A stretch of DNA of 64,000 bases. Source: Bacteroidaceae bacterium (GTDB taxonomy: Bacteria; Bacteroidota; Bacteroidia; Bacteroidales; Bacteroidaceae). Location: assembly GCA_024401095.1 (NCBI GenBank), contig JAKSLR010000002.1, forward strand, positions 62,001 through 126,000, given 5' to 3'. The position numbers and the translations under genes were made by a program. Below are positions 9,616-53,134 of the stretch, in pieces (within the stretch, counting starts at the first letter, position 1; each line of letters opens with the position of its first letter). The notes under the pieces are model-generated. The model made no database searches and was not told where the DNA came from. It saw only the letters and a program-made list of their open reading frames with translations.

Positions 9616-10728
9616 ATGATAAAAAAACTTTTTACGGCAGCACTGCTGCTTGGCGTTAGCTTGACCGTTGGCGCTCAGAACATTACAGAGAAGTACAAAC
9701 GCTTCCTTACCGATCCGTATGGTTATGTAGTTTATAAGACTTTAGAGACCATGAATATTGATGGTAAACTGGATGAGGCAGCCTGGAAGAATGCTCCTCT
9801 GACAGAATCTTTCGTTGACATCAGCGGTGAAGGTTTTCCTACACCTCGTTTCAACACCCAGGCTAAGATGCTTTGGGATGAGAACTATCTGTACATTGGC
9901 GCAGAGCTAGAAGAACCTAGTGTGTGGGCAGATCTGGTACAGCGTGATACCATCATCTATTACAATCATGATTTTGAGGTGTTCATTGATCCAGATGGTG
10001 ACGGCCATAACTATTTTGAGATTGAGACCAATGCGTTGGGTACTGTATTCGATTTGTTTGTGCAGCGACCTTACCGTGCAAAACAGCGTGCGTTTGTTAC
10101 TTTTGCATGGGATTGTCCAGGCATGAAACTTGCTACCCATGTGAATGGTACCTTGAACAAGTCTAAGGACAAGGACCAGGGATGGACCGTGGAGATTGCC
10201 ATTCCAAAGGAGGCTTTGGCTGCAGAGTTTGACAATTATTACAAGGCAGGTAACTATATGCGCCTGGGCTTCTCTCGCGTAGAGTGGCAGACTGTTTCCG
10301 ACAAACGTGGTCATGAGTCCAGAAAGAAGGATGCCAATGGCAAGTTCTTGCCAGAGGACAACTGGACCTGGGGTCCTACCGGTATGATTGCCATGCACAT
10401 GCCAGAGCGCTGGGGATATGTCTATCTGTCAGACAAGATTGTTGGTCAGGACAGCGAGACTTTCAAGTATCCTGCAGACCGTCCTATAGAGCGCTTGCTC
10501 TGGGCGATGTTCTATGCACAGGAAGAGCAGTTCGAGAAGACTGGTACTTACTTCAGCAAGACCGAGCAGTTCAAGTTGGTGGATAGTGAAATCAAGGCTT
10601 TGCCAAAGGGTAGTATCCTGAAGGTAGAGGCTACAGCCAATAAATATGAAATCGTTGCCACCCTTCCAGACGGTCGTGTCATCTCAATCGATGAGGACGG
10701 CTACCTGTGGAGAAGAGAGAAGAAATAA
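9616..10728 (+). CDS. Secreted CBM9-like carbohydrate-binding protein
   Basis: A 370-residue protein with a signal peptide (residues 1-21, ending VGAQ). Residues about 43-240 match the CBM9-like fold found in Bacteroidetes sugar-binding proteins: IDGKLDEAAWKNAP, then AKMLWDENYLYIGAELEEP and DFEVFIDPDGDGHNYFEIE. No catalytic domain is visible. The remaining C-terminal part is unassigned. It probably binds glycans at the cell surface or in the periplasm for the co-transcribed hydrolases. It starts 15 nt after the GH29 gene. Confidence 0.8.
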   Translation: MIKKLFTAALLLGVSLTVGAQNITEKYKRFLTDPYGYVVYKTLETMNIDGKLDEAAWKNAPLTESFVDISGEGFPTPRFNTQAKMLWDENYLYIGAELEEPSVWADLVQRDTIIYYNHDFEVFIDPDGDGHNYFEIETNALGTVFDLFVQRPYRAKQRAFVTFAWDCPGMKLATHVNGTLNKSKDKDQGWTVEIAIPKEALAAEFDNYYKAGNYMRLGFSRVEWQTVSDKRGHESRKKDANGKFLPEDNWTWGPTGMIAMHMPERWGYVYLSDKIVGQDSETFKYPADRPIERLLWAMFYAQEEQFEKTGTYFSKTEQFKLVDSEIKALPKGSILKVEATANKYEIVATLPDGRVISIDEDGYLWRREKK

Positions 10729-17128: not shown

Positions 17129-17156
17129 TCCTTTATAACTTGTAGATAAAACATGA

Positions 17157-17194
17157 AATCTCAGTCCAAATGAACTTTTGGACTGAGATTTTTC
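17157..17194 (+). terminator. Intrinsic terminator after transglutaminase gene
   Basis: A perfect 14-bp stem (17157-17170 with 17177-17190) with a 6-nt loop ends in a T-rich tract. Confidence 0.92.
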
Positions 17195-17343: not shown

Positions 17344-17375
17344 TTTGTCCATTACAAAAAGAACAACTAAATTTG
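17344..17375 (+). promoter_or_regulatory. ilv operon promoter
   Basis: TTTG (17344-17347), a 20-nt spacer and TAAATTTG (17368-17375) fit the Bacteroidetes consensus. The predicted transcript starts near 17382, giving a leader of about 190 nt before ilvD. The stretch from 17200 to 17343 is AT-rich and shows nothing else. Confidence 0.75.
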
Positions 17376-17402
17376 CGGCAATTTATAAAAGAGAGAGAGT
17401 AT

Positions 17403-17495
17403 ATGACATTTTCAATTTCATCTTCAGTCGTCGAATTAGGTATTTTGCACGTGGTGATTAAGGCACTGGGTGAGAAAGGTTGTATACACTTGTAG
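17403..17495 (+). CDS. ilv leader peptide (30 aa)
   Basis: A short ORF begins about 20 nt after the predicted transcription start. It encodes 30 residues, of which 12 are Ile, Val or Leu: Val9-10, Leu12, Ile14, Leu15, Val17-18, Ile19 and Leu22 form the densest run. It has an AG-rich but weak ribosome site. Its last third overlaps the antiterminator arm (17470-17479). Composition, position and overlap are those of an attenuator leader peptide whose translation senses charged branched-chain tRNAs. It is too short for ordinary gene calling. Confidence 0.75.
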   Translation: MTFSISSSVVELGILHVVIKALGEKGCIHL

Positions 17496-17550
17496 AGACA
17501 TAAAAACAAAGCTGTTGAGCCTTTCTCACAAACGTTGAGAGAGGCTTTTT
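17470..17550 (+). promoter_or_regulatory. Attenuator: antiterminator and terminator of ilv operon
   Basis: The terminator is an 11-bp stem (17518-17528 with 17536-17546, one G-U) followed by a run of T. Its 5' arm is also perfectly complementary over 10 nt (17520-17529) to 17470-17479 inside the leader peptide frame. The two helices exclude each other. A ribosome stalled on the Val/Ile/Leu codons would leave 17470-17479 free to pair and prevent termination. A ribosome reaching the leader stop would cover it and allow termination. Confidence 0.78.
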
Positions 17551-17573
17551 GATTGAAAAAAAGAAGACAAAAT

Positions 17574-19376
17574 ATGAAACATCCATTGAGAAGTGCTGTT
17601 TGCACAGAAGGAAGAAGAATGGCTGGTGCCAGAGCCCTTTGGGTGGCCAACGGAATGAAACGTGAGCAGTTTGGCAAGCCAATCATTGCTATTGTCAATT
17701 CATTTACTCAGTTTGTTCCTGGTCATACTCATTTGCATGAAATCGGTCAGATTGTCAAGTCTGAAATAGAAAAACTGGGCTGTTATGCTGCAGAATTTAA
17801 TACCATTGCTGTGGATGATGGTATTGCAATGGGACATGACGGAATGCTTTATTCCCTTCCTTCACGTGATGTGATAGCAGATTCTGTAGAATACATGGTC
17901 AATGCACATAAGGCTGACGCCATGGTTTGCATTTCCAACTGTGACAAGGTTACTCCGGGTATGCTGATGGCTGCCATGCGTTTGAATATCCCTGCAGTAT
18001 TTGTCAGTGGTGGACCAATGGAGGCTCATAAGCTGAATGGAGAAAATGCGGATTTGATCACTGCAATGGTGAAGGGCGGTGATGTTACTGTCAGCGATGA
18101 GGAACTCGCTCAGGTTGAACAGATGGCTTGCCCTGGTTGTGGTGCATGTTCTGGTATGTTTACAGCAAACTCCATGAACTCTTTGACTGAAGCTTTGGGT
18201 ATGTCGCTTCCTGGTAATGGCTCAATTTTGGCTACTCATGTAAATCGTATTCAGCTTTTCAAGGATGCAGCCAAGCTAATTGTAAAGAATGCATTGGCTT
18301 ACTATGAAGACGGTGATGATTCTGTTCTTCCTCGTTCCATTGCAACCCGTCCTGCTTTCTTGAATGCCATGACACTGGATATAGCTATGGGTGCTTCTAC
18401 CAATACCGTTCTCCATCTGTTGGCTGTTGCCCAAGAAGCTGAAGTTGATTTTAAGATGAAAGATATCGATGCACTTTCCCGTAAGGTTCCTTTCTTGTGC
18501 AAGTTGGCGCCAAACTGGCAAAAGTATTCTATTCAGGAGGAAAATCGTGCAGGTGGTATTTTGGGAATCATGGGTGAACTTGCCAAGGGCAATTTGCTGG
18601 ATCTTTCCTGCAAGCGTGTAAATGGAGCAACGCTGGGTGAAGATATTCAGAAGTATTCTATTACTGGTAATGTGCTAGATCCTGAAGCAGACCGCATTTA
18701 TCATTCAGCACCAGGTGGTGTGTTCTCTAATGTCATGGGTTCACAGAATGCACAATGGGAGACTTTGGATACAGACCGTGTAAATGGTTGCATTCGCGAT
18801 ATTGAACATGCCTACACCAAGGATGGTGGTATGGCTGTTCTCTTTGGAAACATTGCACAGGATGGTTGTGTGGTAAAGACTGCTGGTGTAGCTCCAGAAC
18901 TTTGGCACTTTGAAGGTCCTGCGGTAGTCTTTGACTCTCAAGAAGATGCCTGTGACGGCATTTTGGGCGGAAAAGTAAAGAAAGGTGATTGTGTAGTAAT
19001 CACTCATGAAGGTCCTAAGGGTGGTCCTGGTATGCAGGAGATGCTTTATCCAACCTCATACATCAAGAGCATGCATATGGGTAAGGAGTGTGCCCTGATT
19101 ACAGATGGCCGTTTCTCTGGTGGCACATCAGGATTGAGTATCGGTCACATTTCTCCAGAGGCAGCCTCTGGTGGAAACATTGGAAAGATTAAAGATGGTG
19201 ACATCATCGTTATAGATATTCCAAGCCGCTCTATCAATGTGAAGTTGAGCGATGAAGAGCTTGCTGCTCGTCCTCAACAACCGCTGAAGCGTAATCGTGT
19301 AGTGTCAAAGGCATTGCGTGCATATGCTCAGAGTGTTTCAAGTGCAGACAAGGGTGGTGTACGTATAATAGATTAA
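17574..19376 (+). CDS. ilvD: Dihydroxy-acid dehydratase
   Basis: A 600-residue Fe-S enzyme that dehydrates 2,3-dihydroxy-isovalerate and its methylvalerate homologue in valine and isoleucine synthesis. Cluster cysteines are visible in [12 protein letters not shown] and [17 protein letters not shown], and the C-terminal part has [21 protein letters not shown]. The start [13 protein letters not shown] is chosen, since the frame extension from 17553 uses TTG and lies in the attenuator tail. It is the first structural gene after the attenuator, and ilvB follows after 1 nt. Confidence 0.97.
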
Positions 19377-19377
19377 T

Positions 19378-21072
19378 ATGGAAAAGATTTCTGGTGCAGA
19401 AGCATTGATGCGAAGCCTTGAGCATGAAGGTGTGGATGTCCTTTTCGGATATCCTGGTGGTGCCATCATGCCTACCTACGATGCTTTGTACGATCATAAA
19501 AATACATTGAATCATGTTTTGGTTCGCCATGAGCAAGGGGCTGTGCATGCAGCACAGGGCTATGCTCGTGTGAGTGGTAAGGTGGGTTGTGTCATTGTAA
19601 CCTCTGGCCCTGGTGCCATGAATACCATTACAGGTATTGCTGATGCAATGATAGACTCCACGCCTTTGGTGGTAATCTGTGGCCAGGTGGGTGCTGCAAT
19701 GTTGGGAACCGATGCGTTCCAAGAAGTGGATGTGGTGGGTGTTACCCAGCCAATTTCAAAATGGAACTATCAGATTCGCCGTGCTGAAGACATAGCCTGG
19801 GCGGTGGCTCGCGCTTTTTATATTGCGAAATCTGGCCGACCAGGTCCTGTTGTTCTGGATTTTACCAAGAATGCGCAGACTGCCATGATTGAGTATGAAC
19901 CACAGGTGGTGGATTTCATCCGTTCTTACAAGCCAGTACCTCAGTGTGAACCGGACGTCATTGCAAAGGCTGCCCAGCTTATTAACGACAGTGTTAAGCC
20001 TTTCATGTTGGTAGGCCAGGGCGTTGAACTGGCGGGTGCCAACGAGGAACTTCTTGCTCTTTGTGAGAAAGCTCAGATACCATTTGCTACCACTTTCTTG
20101 GGTTTGTCTGCTGCACCTTCTGATCATCCTTTGAATATGGGTCGTTTAGGTATGCACGGAAATTTGGCACCTAATGTCATGACTAACCAATGTGATGTAC
20201 TCATTGCTGTAGGTATGCGATTTGATGACCGTGTAACAGGAAATCTTAAGACTTATGCCAAGCAGGCAAGAATAATTCATTTTGAAATTGACCCATCAGA
20301 GATTGATAAAAACGTAAAAGTGGATATTCCTGTGTTGGGCAATTGCAAGCAGACTTTGGCAGAAGTGTCAAAGCTAGTGGTGCCTACTAAGCACGATGCC
20401 TGGATTTCTGGCTTTGCCCCATATGCAGACAAGGAAAACAATAAGGTAATTGAACCAGCACTGCATCCTTCCGAAGGTCCAATTCTCATGGGTGAAGTAA
20501 TCCGAAAAGTATCGGATGCTTCAGGTAATGAGGCTATCATGGTAACCGATGTCGGCCAGAATCAAATGTTTGCTTGCCGATATTTCAAGTTTACAAAGCC
20601 ACGTTCTGTAGTTACTTCTGGTGGTTGTGGTACCATGGGCTTTGGTATTCCTGCAGCCATGGGCGCGTGCTATGGTGCTCCAGACCGTACTGTGTGCATG
20701 TTTGCGGGTGATGGCGGTCTTCAGATGACTATACAGGAGTTTGGCTGTATCATGGAACATCAGATTCCTGTGAAGATGATTCTGTTGAACAATAATTTCC
20801 TTGGCAATGTGCGCCAGTGGCAGTATATGTTCTTTGACAAGCGTTACTCGTTTACTCCGATGACAAATCCTGATTATGAATTGATAGCCAAGGGTTATGG
20901 CATTCCTTGCCGTACAGTGGTAGATAGAAAGGATCTGGATGAGGCCATTCGTGAGATGCTTGAAACAAAAGGTCCATACCTCTTGCAGGTAGCAGTGAAG
21001 GAAGAGGATAATATCCTCCCAATGACTCCTCCAGGAGGAAATGTAGATGAAATGTTATTGGAGATTAACTAA
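19378..21072 (+). CDS. ilvB: Acetolactate synthase large subunit
   Basis: A 564-residue thiamine-diphosphate enzyme that joins two pyruvates, or pyruvate and 2-ketobutyrate, in branched-chain amino acid synthesis. Visible motifs are GYPGGAIMPTYDAL, RHEQGAVHAAQGYAR with the ThDP-activating Glu, TSGPGAMNTITGIADA, and the ThDP/Mg motif GDGGLQMT with NNNFLG about 30 residues later. Its stop codon overlaps the start of ilvN (TAATG), which favours stoichiometric expression of both subunits. Confidence 0.97.
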   Translation: MEKISGAEALMRSLEHEGVDVLFGYPGGAIMPTYDALYDHKNTLNHVLVRHEQGAVHAAQGYARVSGKVGCVIVTSGPGAMNTITGIADAMIDSTPLVVICGQVGAAMLGTDAFQEVDVVGVTQPISKWNYQIRRAEDIAWAVARAFYIAKSGRPGPVVLDFTKNAQTAMIEYEPQVVDFIRSYKPVPQCEPDVIAKAAQLINDSVKPFMLVGQGVELAGANEELLALCEKAQIPFATTFLGLSAAPSDHPLNMGRLGMHGNLAPNVMTNQCDVLIAVGMRFDDRVTGNLKTYAKQARIIHFEIDPSEIDKNVKVDIPVLGNCKQTLAEVSKLVVPTKHDAWISGFAPYADKENNKVIEPALHPSEGPILMGEVIRKVSDASGNEAIMVTDVGQNQMFACRYFKFTKPRSVVTSGGCGTMGFGIPAAMGACYGAPDRTVCMFAGDGGLQMTIQEFGCIMEHQIPVKMILLNNNFLGNVRQWQYMFFDKRYSFTPMTNPDYELIAKGYGIPCRTVVDRKDLDEAIREMLETKGPYLLQVAVKEEDNILPMTPPGGNVDEMLLEIN

Positions 21073-21890
21073 TGGAAACAAATAAAAAATTAGGTGCTGC
21101 AGAGTGTGGCGACTGTAATGCATGTGGTAAGTGCGACGAACAGAATCCTGCTAATTTGACAGGATTAGAGGAGGCTGTTCGTGTAGCAGCCTCCATGGAT
21201 TATAATTCCTATGAGAAGAACTTGACGCGTGAGCGAATGGCTACTTTGGAGGCAGATAGCCTGAAGGGTGAGCAGCATGAAACATTCACACGTAACGCAG
21301 TTGCTCGTCCATCTATAGCTGGTCGTGAAGGTGCCTTGTTGAGTCATGATGGCTTGACACTTTATACATTAATCATTTATTCAGAGAACTATGCCGGTAT
21401 TCTGAATCAGATAACAGCAGTTTTCACTCGCCGACAGGTAAATATCGAATCTTTGAATGTATGTTCTTCTTCTACTCCTGGAGTACACAAGTATACCATT
21501 ACATGTTATTGTAAGCAGGAAATGGCTGAAATGCTGGTGAAACAGATAGAGAAGAAGATTGATGTGTTACAAGCCAACTGTTTTGTGGATGATGAGATCT
21601 TTATTCTGGAGACTTCATTGCTAAAATTGTCCACACCAATGGTTTTGGCCAATCAGGAAATCAGCCGCATCGTCCGTCGTTTTGATGCTCAGATTGTAGA
21701 AGTGAATACAACTTTCACCATAGTTGAAAAAACAGGTATTACTGCTGATGTTCTGAATCATTTCAAGCAACTTAATGATTTGGGATGTGTGTTGCAGTTT
21801 GTCCGTTCAGGTCGCATTGCAGTAACTAAATCGTGCATAGAGCGTTTGGATCAGTACCTTACCAAGCGTGCTGCTGAAAAGAATTCATAA
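21072..21890 (+). CDS. ilvN: Acetolactate synthase small subunit with Cys-rich N-terminal extension
   Basis: A 272-residue regulatory subunit. Residues 95-272 form a normal IlvN: an ACT domain (TLYTLIIYSENYAGILNQIT, with RRQVNIESLNV) and the C-terminal domain ending in FVRSGRIAVTKS. The first 93 residues are an extension absent from usual IlvN proteins of about 160-190 residues. It begins with four cysteines in a CxxCxxCxxC pattern (12, 15, 18, 21). The long start is supported by the TAATG overlap with ilvB. Met42 or Met56 are possible later starts but lack that coupling. The cysteines could bind a metal or an Fe-S cluster; this is inference. Confidence 0.93.
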   Translation: METNKKLGAAECGDCNACGKCDEQNPANLTGLEEAVRVAASMDYNSYEKNLTRERMATLEADSLKGEQHETFTRNAVARPSIAGREGALLSHDGLTLYTLIIYSENYAGILNQITAVFTRRQVNIESLNVCSSSTPGVHKYTITCYCKQEMAEMLVKQIEKKIDVLQANCFVDDEIFILETSLLKLSTPMVLANQEISRIVRRFDAQIVEVNTTFTIVEKTGITADVLNHFKQLNDLGCVLQFVRSGRIAVTKSCIERLDQYLTKRAAEKNS

Positions 21891-21895
21891 GGATT

Positions 21896-22684
21896 ATGGC
21901 GGAAACGTTTGAAGAACTTGTAGAAAAATATGGAAAGGTAGGCCGTTACAAAAATCTGGCAGAGCCTTTTCACTGTGATGTGAACCACAATCTTTTCATG
22001 GGGCATTTGGGTAATCATTTGCTGAATGCTGCAGATTTCCACAGTAGCGACCGTGGTTTTGGCATGCGCACTCTCAACACGCTGAACAAGACTTGGGTGC
22101 TTTCCCGTCTGGTCATTGAGATGGAAGAGATGCCAAAACGTTATGATGAGTTTGTGGTTGAAAGCTGGGTAGAATCAGCCATGCGCTTCTTTACCAACCG
22201 TAACTTCCGGGTTATCTCTCAAGGAGACAAAACCATCGGTTACGGACGAAGTATCTGGGCATTGATTGACACAGAAACACGTCAGCCATGTAACCTGTTG
22301 GATATAAAAGAAGGAGAGATTGTAAAATGGGCGGAGCCCGATCTTGAATGCCCGATAGCTAAGCCAGGACGTGTCAAGATGTCTAAGGAAGCACCGCTGG
22401 TGGGAGAGTTCCGTGCAGCTTACAACGACGTAGATGTAAACGGTCACGTAAACTCCATTAAATATATAGAACATGTACTTGATATTTTCCCTATTAGTTA
22501 TTATAAGGATTACATGCTCTACCGCTTTGAGATAGCCTATGTGGCAGAAAGCTATTATGGCGATACCTTGAAATTATATTTAGAGGAAATAGGAGAGAAT
22601 GAATATGAGGTACGCATTTCTAAGGTTACCCCAGAGGGTGAATCAGAATGCTGCCGATCATCTTTGAGATTTAAACATTATTAA
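21896..22684 (+). CDS. Acyl-ACP thioesterase
   Basis: A 262-residue cytoplasmic double hot-dog protein of the FatA/TE14 type. The N-terminal hot-dog has HLGNHLLNAADFHSSDRGFG and the C-terminal one has YNDVDVNGHVNSIKYIEHVLD, with the conserved DxNxHxN layout of plant and bacterial acyl-ACP thioesterases. It releases fatty acids from acyl carrier protein. It sits 5 nt after ilvN and 18 nt before ilvC, so it is part of the ilv operon. Similar placement occurs in other Bacteroidales and may link branched-chain precursor supply to branched fatty acid metabolism (inference). Confidence 0.92.
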   Translation: MAETFEELVEKYGKVGRYKNLAEPFHCDVNHNLFMGHLGNHLLNAADFHSSDRGFGMRTLNTLNKTWVLSRLVIEMEEMPKRYDEFVVESWVESAMRFFTNRNFRVISQGDKTIGYGRSIWALIDTETRQPCNLLDIKEGEIVKWAEPDLECPIAKPGRVKMSKEAPLVGEFRAAYNDVDVNGHVNSIKYIEHVLDIFPISYYKDYMLYRFEIAYVAESYYGDTLKLYLEEIGENEYEVRISKVTPEGESECCRSSLRFKHY

Positions 22685-22702: not shown

Positions 22703-23746
22703 ATGGCAAAAATGAATTTTGGCGGTGTCATCGAAGAAGTAATGACCCGTGAAGAGTTCCCATTGGAAAAAGCTCGTGAGATTTTGAAGGATGAGACCAT
22801 CGCTGTAATCGGCTATGGTGTTCAGGGACCTGGTCAGGCATGTAATTTGCGTGACAATGGTTTCAATGTAATTGTAGGCCAGCGTCAGGGTAAGACTTTT
22901 GAAAAGGCTATCGGTGATGGTTGGGTACCAGGTGAGACATTGTTCTCTATTGAAGAAGCTGCAGAGAAGGGTACTATCGTTATGTGTCTGCTTTCAGATG
23001 CTGCAGTTATGTCTGTATGGCCTACTCTCCAGAAGTATCTTACTCCTGGTAAGGCACTCTATTTCTCTCACGGCTTTGCTATTACTTGGTCTGATCGTAC
23101 AGGTTGTGTTCCATCAAAAGATATTGATGTTATCATGGTTGCTCCAAAGGGTTCTGGTACTTCACTCCGTACCATGTTCCTTGAAGGCCGTGGCTTGAAC
23201 TCTTCTTACGCAGTTTATAACGATGCTACAGGCAAGGCATTGGAACGTACATTGGCTTTGGGTATCGGTATCGGTTCTGGTTATATGTTTGAGACAACAT
23301 TCCAGCGCGAGGCTACTTCTGACCTTACCGGTGAACGTGGTTCCCTCATGGGTGCTATTCAGGGCTTGCTTTTGGCTCAGTATGAGGTATTGCGTGAAAA
23401 TGGTCACACTCCATCAGAGGCATTCAATGAAACCGTTGAGGAGCTGACTCAGTCACTGATGCCACTGTTCGCTCAGAAGGGTATGGACTGGATGTATGCT
23501 AATTGTTCTACTACAGCTCAGCGTGGTGCATTGGATTGGATGGGTCCTTTCCACGATGCATGCAAGCCTGTAGTTGAGAAGCTTTATGCTTCTGTAAAAT
23601 GTGGTAACGAGGCACAGATTTCTATCGACGCAAACTCAAAGCCAGACTATCGTGTAGGCTTGGAAGAAGAGTTAAAGGCTCTCCGTGAGAGCGAAATGTG
23701 GCGTACAGCTGAGGTCGTTCGTAAACTTCGTCCTGAAAACAACTAA
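22703..23746 (+). CDS. ilvC: Ketol-acid reductoisomerase
   Basis: A 347-residue enzyme converting acetolactate to dihydroxy-isovalerate with NAD(P)H. The nucleotide-binding loop IAVIGYGVQGPGQACNLRDNG is followed by VIVGQRQGKTFEKA, and metal/catalytic acidic residues sit in the helical domain (SDLTGERGSLMGAI and ETVEELTQSLMP). It is the class I short form. It is the last gene of the operon, with a strong terminator 20-60 nt after the stop. Confidence 0.97.
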   Translation: MAKMNFGGVIEEVMTREEFPLEKAREILKDETIAVIGYGVQGPGQACNLRDNGFNVIVGQRQGKTFEKAIGDGWVPGETLFSIEEAAEKGTIVMCLLSDAAVMSVWPTLQKYLTPGKALYFSHGFAITWSDRTGCVPSKDIDVIMVAPKGSGTSLRTMFLEGRGLNSSYAVYNDATGKALERTLALGIGIGSGYMFETTFQREATSDLTGERGSLMGAIQGLLLAQYEVLRENGHTPSEAFNETVEELTQSLMPLFAQKGMDWMYANCSTTAQRGALDWMGPFHDACKPVVEKLYASVKCGNEAQISIDANSKPDYRVGLEEELKALRESEMWRTAEVVRKLRPENN

Positions 23747-33016: not shown

Positions 33017-33184
33017 AGGTCGCACATATAGTTCATGGGGATTCTCTACATTTTATACTGAAACCGAGCAAGCTTACTCCGCTTCAATGGCGTGCCGGTA
33101 ATCTTCGTGATACGCCGGATTACAAAGACGGAGGGCCCTCAAATCCTATCTTACAGGAGTTTCATCGCATCAACTGTGCGACCT
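33017..33184 (+). ncRNA. Structured RNA after rplT, probable Bacteroidales-1 / 6S-like RNA
   Basis: A perfect 10-bp closing stem (33017-33026 with 33175-33184, AGGTCGCACA/TGTGCGACCT) encloses about 150 nt. Inside, CTCCG (33077-33081) pairs with CGGAG (33129-33133), and 33088-33094 pairs with 33111-33117 (GGCGT/ACGCC core plus two G-U) to give a long rod with an internal bubble. A strong terminator follows. The location downstream of rplT is where the Bacteroidales-1 RNA motif has been described, and that motif has been proposed to be a divergent 6S RNA. No clear promoter is seen just upstream, so processing from the rplT transcript is possible. Confidence 0.72.
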
Positions 33185-33199
33185 TTCCTTATTAGTCAT

Positions 33200-45727: not shown

Positions 45728-48700
45728 ATGAAACAAGTAAATTTTAGAATCCCTAGGATTCTGGCCCTTCTGCTTGGGCTATTCTTGTGTGTGAGCACCT
45801 ATGCACAGCAGATTACTGTGAAGGGTGTTGTGACTGATGCAACTGGAGAAACTGTAATTGGTGCCAATGTTCTTGAAAAGGGAACAACCAATGGTACTAT
45901 CACAGACTTCGATGGTAATTTCCAGTTGCAAGTTAAGAAAGGTGCTATGCTCGTGATCTCTTTTGTGGGCTACAAGACTCAGGAAGTAGAGGCTCAGCCA
46001 ACCATGAACGTGGTTCTGGCCGATGACTCTGATTTGCTGGATGAGGTTGTAGTTATCGGTTACGGTGTAGCAAAGAAAAACGATTTGACCGGATCTGTAA
46101 CTGCTATCCGTCCTGACGAGAAGAACCGTCCTTTGGCTACTTCTGCTCAAGATTTGATGCAAGGTAAGATTGCCGGTGTAAATGTAACCAGTAATGGTGG
46201 TACTCCTGGTGGTGCAGCAACCATCCGTATTCGTGGAGGATCTTCTTTGAATGCTTCAAATGATCCATTGATCGTGATTGATGGCCTTGCTATGGATAAC
46301 CAGGGTGTAAAGGGTGCACCTAATGCTTTGGCCATGGTAAATCCTAACGATATTGAGAGTTTTACTGTGTTGAAGGATGCTTCTGCAACTGCAATCTACG
46401 GTTCCCGTGGTTCTAACGGTGTCATCATCATTACAACCAAGAAGGGAAATCGTAATTCTGCTCCTAATGTATCTTACAGTGGTAATGTTTCAGTTGCAAA
46501 TGTTGCTAAGATGCTGAATGTACTGAATGCAGATGATTATCGTAAATTTATCAACAGTTATTATGGTGCCGAAAGCGATGCAGCAAAGCTGATGGGTAAT
46601 GCCAGCACAGATTGGCAGAAGGAGATTTATCGCTCTGCTATTAGCACAGACCATAATGTAACAGTTTCTGGTGGTCTCCACAAGATGCCTTATCGTCTGT
46701 CTGCAGGCTATACTGATCAGAACGGTACATTGAAAACCTCAAACTATCAGCGTTATACTGCCAGCTTGAATGTGAACCCATCTTTCTTTGACGAACATTT
46801 GAAGTTCAACATTAACGGTAAGTTCATGTACGCAAAGACTCATTATGCAAATACCGATGCTATTGGTGCAGCAAAGCGTATGGACCCAACTCAGCCTGTA
46901 AAGACTAGTGGCTTTGAACAGTTTGGTGGTTACTATACTTGGACAAACAATGGTTCTGCTCTGGGTGACCCAACATGGTCATTGACTCAGAATGCCAATG
47001 CTGCAAAGAACCCTGTTGCTTTGTTGAACGAGAAGGATGACAATGCAGGTTCATATGACTATATGGGTAATGTTGAGGCAGATTACCAAGTTCATGGTTT
47101 AGAAGATCTCCGTCTTCACATGAATTTCTCTGGCGACTGGGCTAACGGTAAGCAGACTACAGTTTATCAGCCTTGGGGCCCTACCAACACTTACTATGGT
47201 AATAGCGGTTATTCTAAGGAAAATAAATATAATTTGACCTATTCTGCATATGCTCAGTACTACAAGGATTTCAAGGAAACTCAGCACTTTGATATCATGG
47301 CAGGTTATGAGTGGAGCCACAAGAAGTTTTGGGGTGATTCTTACTATGCAGGCCTTTATCCTTCTACTAATTCTGAGAAGCCAAATCAGGCTTACAATGA
47401 GTCAGCAGGTTTGTGGAAACAGGAAAGCTTCCTGGTATCTTTCTTCGGCCGTGCAAACTACAGCTTGATGGATCGTTACCTTATCACAGCTACAGTACGT
47501 CGCGATGGTTCTTCACGCTTTAAGGAGCATTGGGCAACCTTCCCATCTGTAGCTCTGGGTTGGAAGATCAAGGATGAGGCATTCTTGAAGGATGTTGATG
47601 CTGTTTCTGACCTTAAGCTTCGTTTAGGTTGGGGTATGACTGGTCAGCAGGATGGTATTGGTAACTATAATTATTTTGCATCTTACAATGCCAATACTAC
47701 CAATGTTAATGGCCGTTACCCTATCAAGGGCGTGAACGACTCAGGTTTGATGTATCGTCCAGATGCTTATAACCAGGATTTGAAGTGGGAGACTACTACT
47801 ACTTATAATGCCGGTTTGGATTTTGGTTTTGCTAACAACCGCATCACCGGTGCTGTAGATTTCTACGTACGTAATACTACTGATCTGATCAATACCGCTT
47901 ACGTATCAGCAGGCTCAAACTTCCGTAACCAGGTAACCAGCAACATTGGTTCTATGAAGAACACCGGTGTCGAGGTATCTTTTACTTTCCGTCCTATTCA
48001 GACAGCTGACTGGCAGTGGGAGATTACTGCCAACGCTACTTATAACAAGAATGAGATTACTGAACTTACCGGTGAATCTTCTATCGTAAAGACCGGTGGT
48101 ATCTCTGCAGGTACTGGTAATACCGTTCAGGCACAGGCAGCAGGTCACCCAAAGAGTTCTTTCTATGTATATCAGCAGGTGTACGATGAGAAGGGCATGC
48201 CTATCGAGGGTGTCTATGTAGATCGCAATGCCGATGGTAAGATTTCTGAGGAAGACCTTTACTTTTACAAGAGTCCAGATGCACCTCTTACCGCAGGTTT
48301 GAGTTCTCGTCTCCAGTACAAGGACTGGGACTTCGGTATGGCATTCCGCGCTAGCTTCGGCAACTACGTATATAACGACAACGAGGCAGGTTTCATGAAT
48401 GTGGATAAGCGCTATGATAGTTCATTCAACTATATCCAGAACGTGACTGCCGATGCTGTATCCCGCAACTGGAAGACCTATGATCACTGTATCTCAGACT
48501 TCTGGGTACATAATGCAAGCTTCCTGAAGTGTGACAACATCACTTTGGGTTATTCTTTCCAGGATTTGTTCAAGAGTACAGGCTATAAGGGTTTGGCTGG
48601 TCGTGTTTATGCTACCGCTTCAAATGTGTTCACTATCACCAAGTATAAGGGTATCGACCCAGAAGTCTATGGTGGTATTGACAATAGTTTGTATCCACGT

Positions 48701-51631: not shown

Positions 51632-53041
51632 ATGAAAAAGTATATATTGTCCGCTCTTGTACTGGCTACCTCTCTGGTAGCTTGTACAGACGATTATCAG
51701 GATTGGGCCAATCCTCAGGCTGTAGAGCAGCCAGCCATTGCTACTTTTGATGAGGGCAGTGTCTCTTCTGTTGATCTCATTGACTTTGCAAACATCCCAG
51801 ATAATCAAACTACTGTTAAGGTATGTAATATTACAGCTCCTTCATCTTCAGACATGTCTTATAATCAAGTTTCTTACAGACTTGTTGATGGCATGCACGA
51901 ATATTATGATTTGAGTAACGATGGATACATGTCTGTTGCCGATTTGAAGACTTATATTGAGACTTGGTACGGTAAGGCTCCTGTTGTGCGTGATATTCCT
52001 TTCCAGGTAGAAGAATGGATTTCAAATGGAACAACATCCATCAAAGTAGGTGGTTTAGGTATTGTTGTAAATGCAAAGCTAACCGCTCCAGAAATTTATC
52101 CTCATTTCTATGTAATCGGTGCACCAAGTGCATGGGATCCTACTTGCACCACACTGCCATTCAAGCACAGTGATGTAAATGTCTATGACGATCCTGTCTT
52201 TACTGTCATGTTCCCTGTAGAGAATGGTGATACTTGGTTTGCCTTTGTCGATGACAAGACCGTTGAGGCTGTTAATGATTGGTCTCTGGTATTTGCTGCT
52301 CGTGAAGGTAACGGTAAGAACCTGATTGGTGAGAAGGGTTCTCTCTGCCGTCGTAACGAACTTGATGCAGAGGCAGGCGATGGTTCATTCATGGTATCTG
52401 TGAATAACGATGCTAAGTTCATCAAGGTTACTGTAAATCTGCTCGATGGCTGGTATTTAATTGAAAAGATAAACTTTGTAGATTATATTTATCTGCCAGG
52501 AAATGCACAGGGTTGGAATCCAGGAACAGCTTCTGCTCTGAAGCACGAGGGCAATGGTCTCTACACTGGTTTTGCATACATGGATGGCGATTTCAAGTTC
52601 ACTCAGGAACGTGCATGGGCTGCAGAATATAATAATGGTAGCTTCTCTACATGCAGTGATGACTTCAGCCTGGGTGATGGTCAAGGTGGAAACATCAGCT
52701 TTACAGGAACTCCTGGTGTTTACTACTTCGAAGTAGATGTCGTTAATGGTGACTTGAAGGCGACTCGCGTAGAAAAGATTGGTTTGATTGGTGACTTCAA
52801 CGGCTGGGGTGCAGACTTTGAAATGACTTGGAATGCTGATGAACTTTGCTATGAAGCTCAGAACCCAGGTATCACTGCAGCAGGCTGGAAGTTCCGTATG
52901 AATGGTGATTGGGCAGTCAACTATGGTGGTGCTTTGGATAACCTTACTAAGGATGGTTCAAACATAGATGCTGTGGGTACAACTGTAAAGTTTTATCCTA
53001 CCCGTTCTACCAAGGACAATATTTATTGTACTGTAGAATAA
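51632..53041 (+). CDS. SusF/SusE-like starch-binding lipoprotein
   Basis: A 469-residue lipoprotein (LVAC lipobox, Cys near 18). At least three beta-sandwich modules are visible: HFYVIGAPSAWDPTCTTLPF (about 150-260), IYLPGNAQGWNPGTASAL (about 285-380) and KIGLIGDFNGWGADFEMTW (about 382-465). Each carries the Trp-rich pattern of SusE/F starch-binding domains. It is the last gene of the susCDEF operon and is followed by a strong terminator. The catalytic SusG-like enzyme that often follows here is instead about 10 kb away. Confidence 0.86.
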   Translation: MKKYILSALVLATSLVACTDDYQDWANPQAVEQPAIATFDEGSVSSVDLIDFANIPDNQTTVKVCNITAPSSSDMSYNQVSYRLVDGMHEYYDLSNDGYMSVADLKTYIETWYGKAPVVRDIPFQVEEWISNGTTSIKVGGLGIVVNAKLTAPEIYPHFYVIGAPSAWDPTCTTLPFKHSDVNVYDDPVFTVMFPVENGDTWFAFVDDKTVEAVNDWSLVFAAREGNGKNLIGEKGSLCRRNELDAEAGDGSFMVSVNNDAKFIKVTVNLLDGWYLIEKINFVDYIYLPGNAQGWNPGTASALKHEGNGLYTGFAYMDGDFKFTQERAWAAEYNNGSFSTCSDDFSLGDGQGGNISFTGTPGVYYFEVDVVNGDLKATRVEKIGLIGDFNGWGADFEMTWNADELCYEAQNPGITAAGWKFRMNGDWAVNYGGALDNLTKDGSNIDAVGTTVKFYPTRSTKDNIYCTVE

Positions 53042-53063
53042 TTCTAAGAAACATAAAAATGAG

Positions 53064-53097
53064 AAGCCCTTTGCTTATGAGCAAAGGGCTTTTTTTG
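53064..53097 (+). terminator. Terminator of susCDEF operon
   Basis: A 12-bp perfect stem (53064-53075 with 53080-53091) with a TATG loop is followed by T. The -7 box TACCTTTG of the next gene (53098-53105) directly follows. Confidence 0.93.
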
Positions 53098-53134
53098 TAC
53101 CTTTGCATCCACAAATACTTAAAAAGGTAAAAAG

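Follow-up and report, generated by a model that had tools for sequence, protein, structure and literature searches.

Textbook examples of ribosome-mediated transcription attenuation are the ilvGMEDA, leuABCD, thrABC, and his operons of Escherichia coli. The Bacteroidaceae genome analyzed here has in common with them leader peptides rich in codons for the end product and separate leaders for ilv, leu, thr, and his, and its ilvD leader shares the predicted 1:2, 2:3, and 3:4 helices and, ahead of the first structural gene, a U-tailed terminator. We saw no sequence relationship between the ilvD leader and the E. coli attenuators (no Rfam match). The genome also differs from E. coli in its Bacteroidota −33/−7 promoter, in having ilvD as the first gene of the operon, and in that its ilvD and leuA leaders are alike enough for one model to find both. 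The predicted mechanism is textbook attenuation, and its instance in Bacteroidia is one without an RNA family. The abstract of a comparative study published by Vitreschak et al. in 2004 is said to include the Bacteroidetes/Chlorobi when it names groups for which some attenuators were predicted, and Lopatovskaya et al. reportedly described predicted attenuators of Bacteroidetes/Chlorobi in 2010. These two sets of predictions lay outside our search of the open-access literature, in which we found no account of an ilvD attenuator in Bacteroidales.

In Bacteroides thetaiotaomicron, short ORFs reminiscent of leader-peptide attenuation have been reported (PMC7366714). A study of structured 5′ regions in Flavobacterium psychrophilum notes leader-peptide attenuation at amino-acid operons in a Flavobacterium (PMC9723704); this organism belongs to the Flavobacteriaceae, a family other than that of our host, and the term 'ilv' is absent from the main text of that article. 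The attenuators of Corynebacterium ilvBNC (PMC11857589, PMC10272879) and the ilvB leaders of Actinobacteria (PMC1262725) resemble the ilvD leader in combining an Ile/Val/Leu-rich leader ORF with a terminator ahead of branched-chain genes, but they come from a different phylum and a different operon. When the candidate codons were substituted in Streptomyces, no effect was seen (PMC1262725), which is a warning against reading the mechanism from sequence alone.

The window, i.e., the whole stretch of DNA that we analyzed, comprises 64,000 nucleotides; the features of the ilvD locus and of three further leaders are collected in Table 1. Gene spacing suggests that ilvD, ilvB, ilvH, the thioesterase gene, and ilvC form one co-transcribed operon. 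In the ilvH-like small subunit, about 95 residues precede the ACT domain, more than is usual. The promoter that the initial annotation had placed ahead of the leader peptide could be located as a candidate of the Bacteroidota type, with TTTG and TAAATTTG boxes that we take to fit the −33/−7 consensus, and transcription would start near 17380. In relatives, too, the DNA that we read upstream of ilvD has a TTTG box ahead of the leader ORF. A sigma70 promoter scan, which does not cover Bacteroidota-type promoters, gave no site on the plus strand.

Table 1. Features of the ilvD leader and operon (window positions) and candidate leaders on contigs of the same genome (G000, last three rows).
Feature	Position	Strand	Remarks
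Transglutaminase-domain gene	ends 17128		upstream neighbour of leader region 17344-17573
Inverted repeat	17156-17191		3′ of transglutaminase-domain gene
Predicted Bacteroidota promoter	17344-17375	+	−33 TTTG 17344-17347; −7 TAAATTTG 17368-17375
Segment 1, ORF start region	17395-17432	+	predicted pairing with arm 2 and flanks when untranslated
Leader peptide ORF, 30 aa	17403-17495	+	ATG 17403-17405; TAG 17493-17495; MTFSISSSVVELGILHVVIKALGEKGCIHL
Segment 2, antiterminator 5′ arm	17470-17481	+	GTGAGAAAGG plus TT
3′ flank of segment 2	17482-17491	+	predicted pairing with 17395-17404
Segment 3, terminator 5′ arm and antiterminator 3′ arm	17517-17529	+	
Segment 4	17536-17550	+	terminator 3′ arm 17536-17547; U tract 17546-17550
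ilvD, dihydroxy-acid dehydratase	17574-19376	+	Pfam PF00920/PF24877; operon gene 1
ilvB	19378-21072	+	ORF list, Pfam
ilvH	21072-21890	+	ORF list, Pfam
Acyl-ACP thioesterase (PF01643)	21896-22684	+	ORF list, Pfam; between ilvH and ilvC
ilvC	22703-23746	+	ORF list, Pfam
leuA attenuator (L216)	G000:C18, match 48235-48386	reverse	before leuA-leuC-leuD; genes named from sequence
hisG leader (L268)	G000:C34, 65904-65779	reverse	MNYMCLHHHHHYSTIFSVSI
thrA leader (L270)	G000:C71, ~10526-10603		Thr/Met/Ile-rich; MTLYGRTSMSMMWITMTTSTTTLRG; before aspartokinase-homoserine dehydrogenase gene

The 30-codon peptide with 12 Ile/Val/Leu codons described in the initial annotation was found again. Among the 29 codons after the start, Ile, Val, and Leu occur four times each, among them V9 V10, I14 L15, and V17 V18 I19, the last run occupying 17451-17459. 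Shuffled window leaders contained an ORF with at least 12 such codons ending at this place in 10 of 2000 cases, and the binomial chance of 12 in 29 is 0.01, so that the leader in the window, taken alone, is not overwhelming. Inside the peptide frame, the segment 17470-17479 complements 17520-17529 perfectly, as had been noted before; this is the longest inverted repeat in the leader (10 nt, 100% match), and a perfect 10-bp arm complementary to the terminator 5′ arm arose in 18 of 5000 shuffled leaders. The duplex of segments 2 and 3 has a computed energy of −19.5 kcal/mol. The terminator, originally placed at 17518-17550, was recovered within one base (17517-17550), with a stem of 12 pairs (17517-17528 with 17536-17547) and a T run to 17550.

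The attenuation logic proposed earlier stands as the full classical scheme but not in its two-helix version. Instead of only two competing helices there are three, the additional one (1:2) being predicted to join the start of the ORF to arm 2 and the flank 3′ of it. In the predicted fold, 17395-17432 pairs with 17462-17491, arm 2 is almost fully paired, and the helix spans the leader start codon (17399-17407 with 17479-17487). The fold of the leader in the window does not by itself go beyond shuffles (z −0.90; restricted duplex test z +0.37), so support for the 1:2 helix comes from comparison with the relatives, in which it co-varies.

For this comparison, an IlvD search found the protein in 109 of 150 related genomes, and 80 more loci were taken from named contigs. 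The DNA upstream of ilvD was read in 170 loci, and about 78 loci in which the parts follow one another in the same order were retained after obvious duplicates and misfits had been removed by hand. All named retained loci belong to Bacteroidota (Bacteroides, Phocaeicola, Tannerella, Alistipes, Paludibacter, Saccharicrinis, Labilibaculum, Marinifilum, Prolixibacteraceae, and others), and none of the Desulfobulbaceae and Spirochaetes contigs is among them. In these ilvD leaders of Bacteroidia, the leader ORF, the antiterminator, and the terminator are kept together. The putative attenuator is widespread and strongly conserved across Bacteroidia; exceptions among congeners include L003, which is without the element at ilvD, and L005, where just a hairpin is left. 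In L005, L006, L007, L009, L010, L094, and L097, a U-tailed hairpin lies near the promoter upstream of ilvD, and no leader peptide was seen there; this may be either a relict or a different control.

The family peptides have a mean of 23 codons after the start, and a core such as NLAVLHIIRVVVV is common to many of them. Their Ile/Leu/Val fraction is 0.49, compared with 0.21 in the ilvD genes and 0.26 in shuffles; under one fixed ORF-picking rule, a fraction of at least 0.40 was reached by 90% of the real leaders and 3% of the shuffles. Codon choice differs as well: GTC and GTG make up 86% of the Val codons in the leaders and 56% in ilvD, and CTA accounts for 22% and 2% of the Leu codons, respectively, a skew that may stem from either tRNA supply or RNA structure. 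In the window, 12 nt separate the start of the final Val-Val-Ile codon from arm 2. The leading edge of a ribosome extends about this far from its A site, so that stalling there would leave arm 2 just exposed; across the 78 leaders, the last codon of the longest Ile/Leu/Val run starts at a median of 12.5 nt before this arm. The leader reading frame in the window runs through arm 2 and stops 24 nt past the arm start, whereas 52 of the 78 loci have their stop codon no more than about 10 nt from the arm start. Both placements would hold a translating ribosome over arm 2.

On a wide alignment RNAalifold returned the terminator only, and on the leader part alone one short hairpin. The 1:2 helix, whose sequence differs greatly among lineages, was missed because MAFFT fails to align this fast-changing element. 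We therefore used an alignment-free test in place of RNAalifold, in which the 2:3 and 1:2 helices are scored with their own and with swapped partners. For the 2:3 helix over 78 loci, own partners gave −18.2 kcal/mol and permuted partners −15.3 kcal/mol (sd 0.28; 0 of 2000 permutations; uncorrected for kinship). In a separate pairing count for this helix, 90% of the cells were paired as opposed to 43-59% when the arms were slid. For the 1:2 helix, formed by the ORF start and the 3′ flank of arm 2, the values were −11.8 and −8.7 kcal/mol (sd 0.27; 0 of 2000, likewise uncorrected for kinship). The 3:4 helix was paired in 98.7% of the cells in 41 relatives and showed eight compensatory cells, compared with 1.3 in shuffles, a number that also exceeds most slid controls. 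The initial annotation had put forward a comparison of the ilvD leaders of relatives, for conserved codons and co-varying arms, as a test of its reading, and both are present in the ~78 leaders.

A covariance model built from the ilvD leader was searched in the same genome and in the relatives. It produced a second, weaker match in this genome, as it did in most relatives with a match, and this match lies before leuA-leuC-leuD. The peptide encoded there, MNSIYLSILLSSLIIRLHRVAGSESYA, is rich in Leu and Ile and nearly free of Val. In 43 leuA leaders, Leu, Ile, and Val account for 18, 16, and 4% of the codons, compared with 14, 15, and 20% in the ilvD leaders. Arm 2 of the leuA leader, GGAAGTGAG, has its complement in CTCACTTCC; the latter is a shifted portion of a similar terminator, and the terminator arm CCTTTCTCAC is common to both kinds of leader. 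A model match at 53032-53098 of the window was rejected as an ordinary terminator. The hisG leader contains five consecutive His codons, a 9-bp antiterminator, and a terminator of −21 kcal/mol; the thrA leader is Thr-rich, and its terminator is less clear and looks weak. The trpE gene of this genome is located inside an operon, and no leader was found there. At four operons (ilvD, leuA, hisG, and thrA), the leader codons go with the amino acid produced, which is hard to explain without ribosome stalling.

We consider it very probable that the element is a classical ribosome-mediated transcription attenuator of the ilvD-ilvB-ilvH-thioesterase-ilvC operon. The analysis shows the sequence parts, their conservation and co-variation, and leader codons that are specific to the pathway at four operons; the kinetics, the amino acids effective in vivo, and the occurrence of termination are what we infer. 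When the leader is not translated, segment 1 would sequester segment 2 and the 3:4 terminator would form. When charged Val or Ile tRNA is scarce, a ribosome would stall in V17-V18-I19, cover the RNA to about 17469, and break the 1:2 helix; segment 2 would then be free to pair with segment 3, no terminator would form, and the operon would be transcribed. With ample amino acids, the ribosome would travel on across segment 2 as far as the stop codon, the terminator would form, and transcription would end near 17550. Computed energies are −23.8 kcal/mol for the 1:2 state, −20.3 kcal/mol for the antiterminator, and −17.0 kcal/mol for the terminator hairpin. In computed folds, treating the RNA to 17469 as covered by a ribosome gave an antiterminator probability close to 1 as long as segment 4 is not yet synthesized, and the terminator formed without a ribosome or with a ribosome at the stop codon. 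Once segment 4 is present and arm 2 is free, the terminator has a probability of 0.43 at equilibrium, about equal to that of the antiterminator, so that the order of synthesis would decide.

Because the start codon lies within the predicted 1:2 helix in the window, and the start region takes part in this helix in many relatives too, attenuation could also depend on translation in another way, with initiation at the leader ORF, i.e., access to its start codon, as the main controlled step in place of codon-specific stalling. We regard this as very unlikely, given that codon specificity tracks the amino acid produced and the codon run lies at stalling distance from arm 2. Less likely again is a translation-independent riboswitch, a T-box, or a protein-controlled attenuator at ilvD, with the ORF as a by-product. 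The leader is indeed structured, and its nucleotides around GTCGTGGTG and arm 2 are conserved, as such an element might lead one to expect. However, Rfam searches at gathering and permissive thresholds gave nothing credible in the ilvD leader, the T-box covariance model had no match at either threshold, and a ligand-binding RNA would not need ORF codons that change with the pathway, as they do in the leuA, his, and thr leaders. Elsewhere in the window, a Bacteroidales-1 (6S-like) RNA is found at 33018-33189 (Rfam RF01693, 89 bits). Intergenic U-tailed hairpins often end transcripts and the binomial value for the peptide is modest, but that the terminator merely ends the transcript of the upstream gene or a small RNA, combined with a chance Ile/Val/Leu-rich ORF, is hardly credible: the upstream gene has its own inverted repeat, the predicted promoter sits between this gene and the leader, and ORF, arm 2, and terminator are conserved jointly in 78 loci.

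Codons and pairing conserved in the ~78 leaders, together with leuA, hisG, and thrA codons that match their pathways, thus argue for the ribosome-mediated attenuation that had been proposed for ilvD. A more far-reaching account, which we hold to be doubtful, is that the ilvD and leuA attenuators are copies of one ancestor, re-tuned through an exchange of Val for Leu codons, and that they represent a class-wide RNA element of Bacteroidia not described before. Its coding run and RNA structure would overlap so closely that it has two inputs, access to the start codon and stalling at the codons.

For gut Bacteroidales, in which gene regulation is little studied, these leaders indicate classical attenuation at several amino-acid operons. 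The pair of ilvD and leuA leaders provides a ready natural experiment on codon specificity, and a curated RNA family would allow many unannotated leaders to be named.
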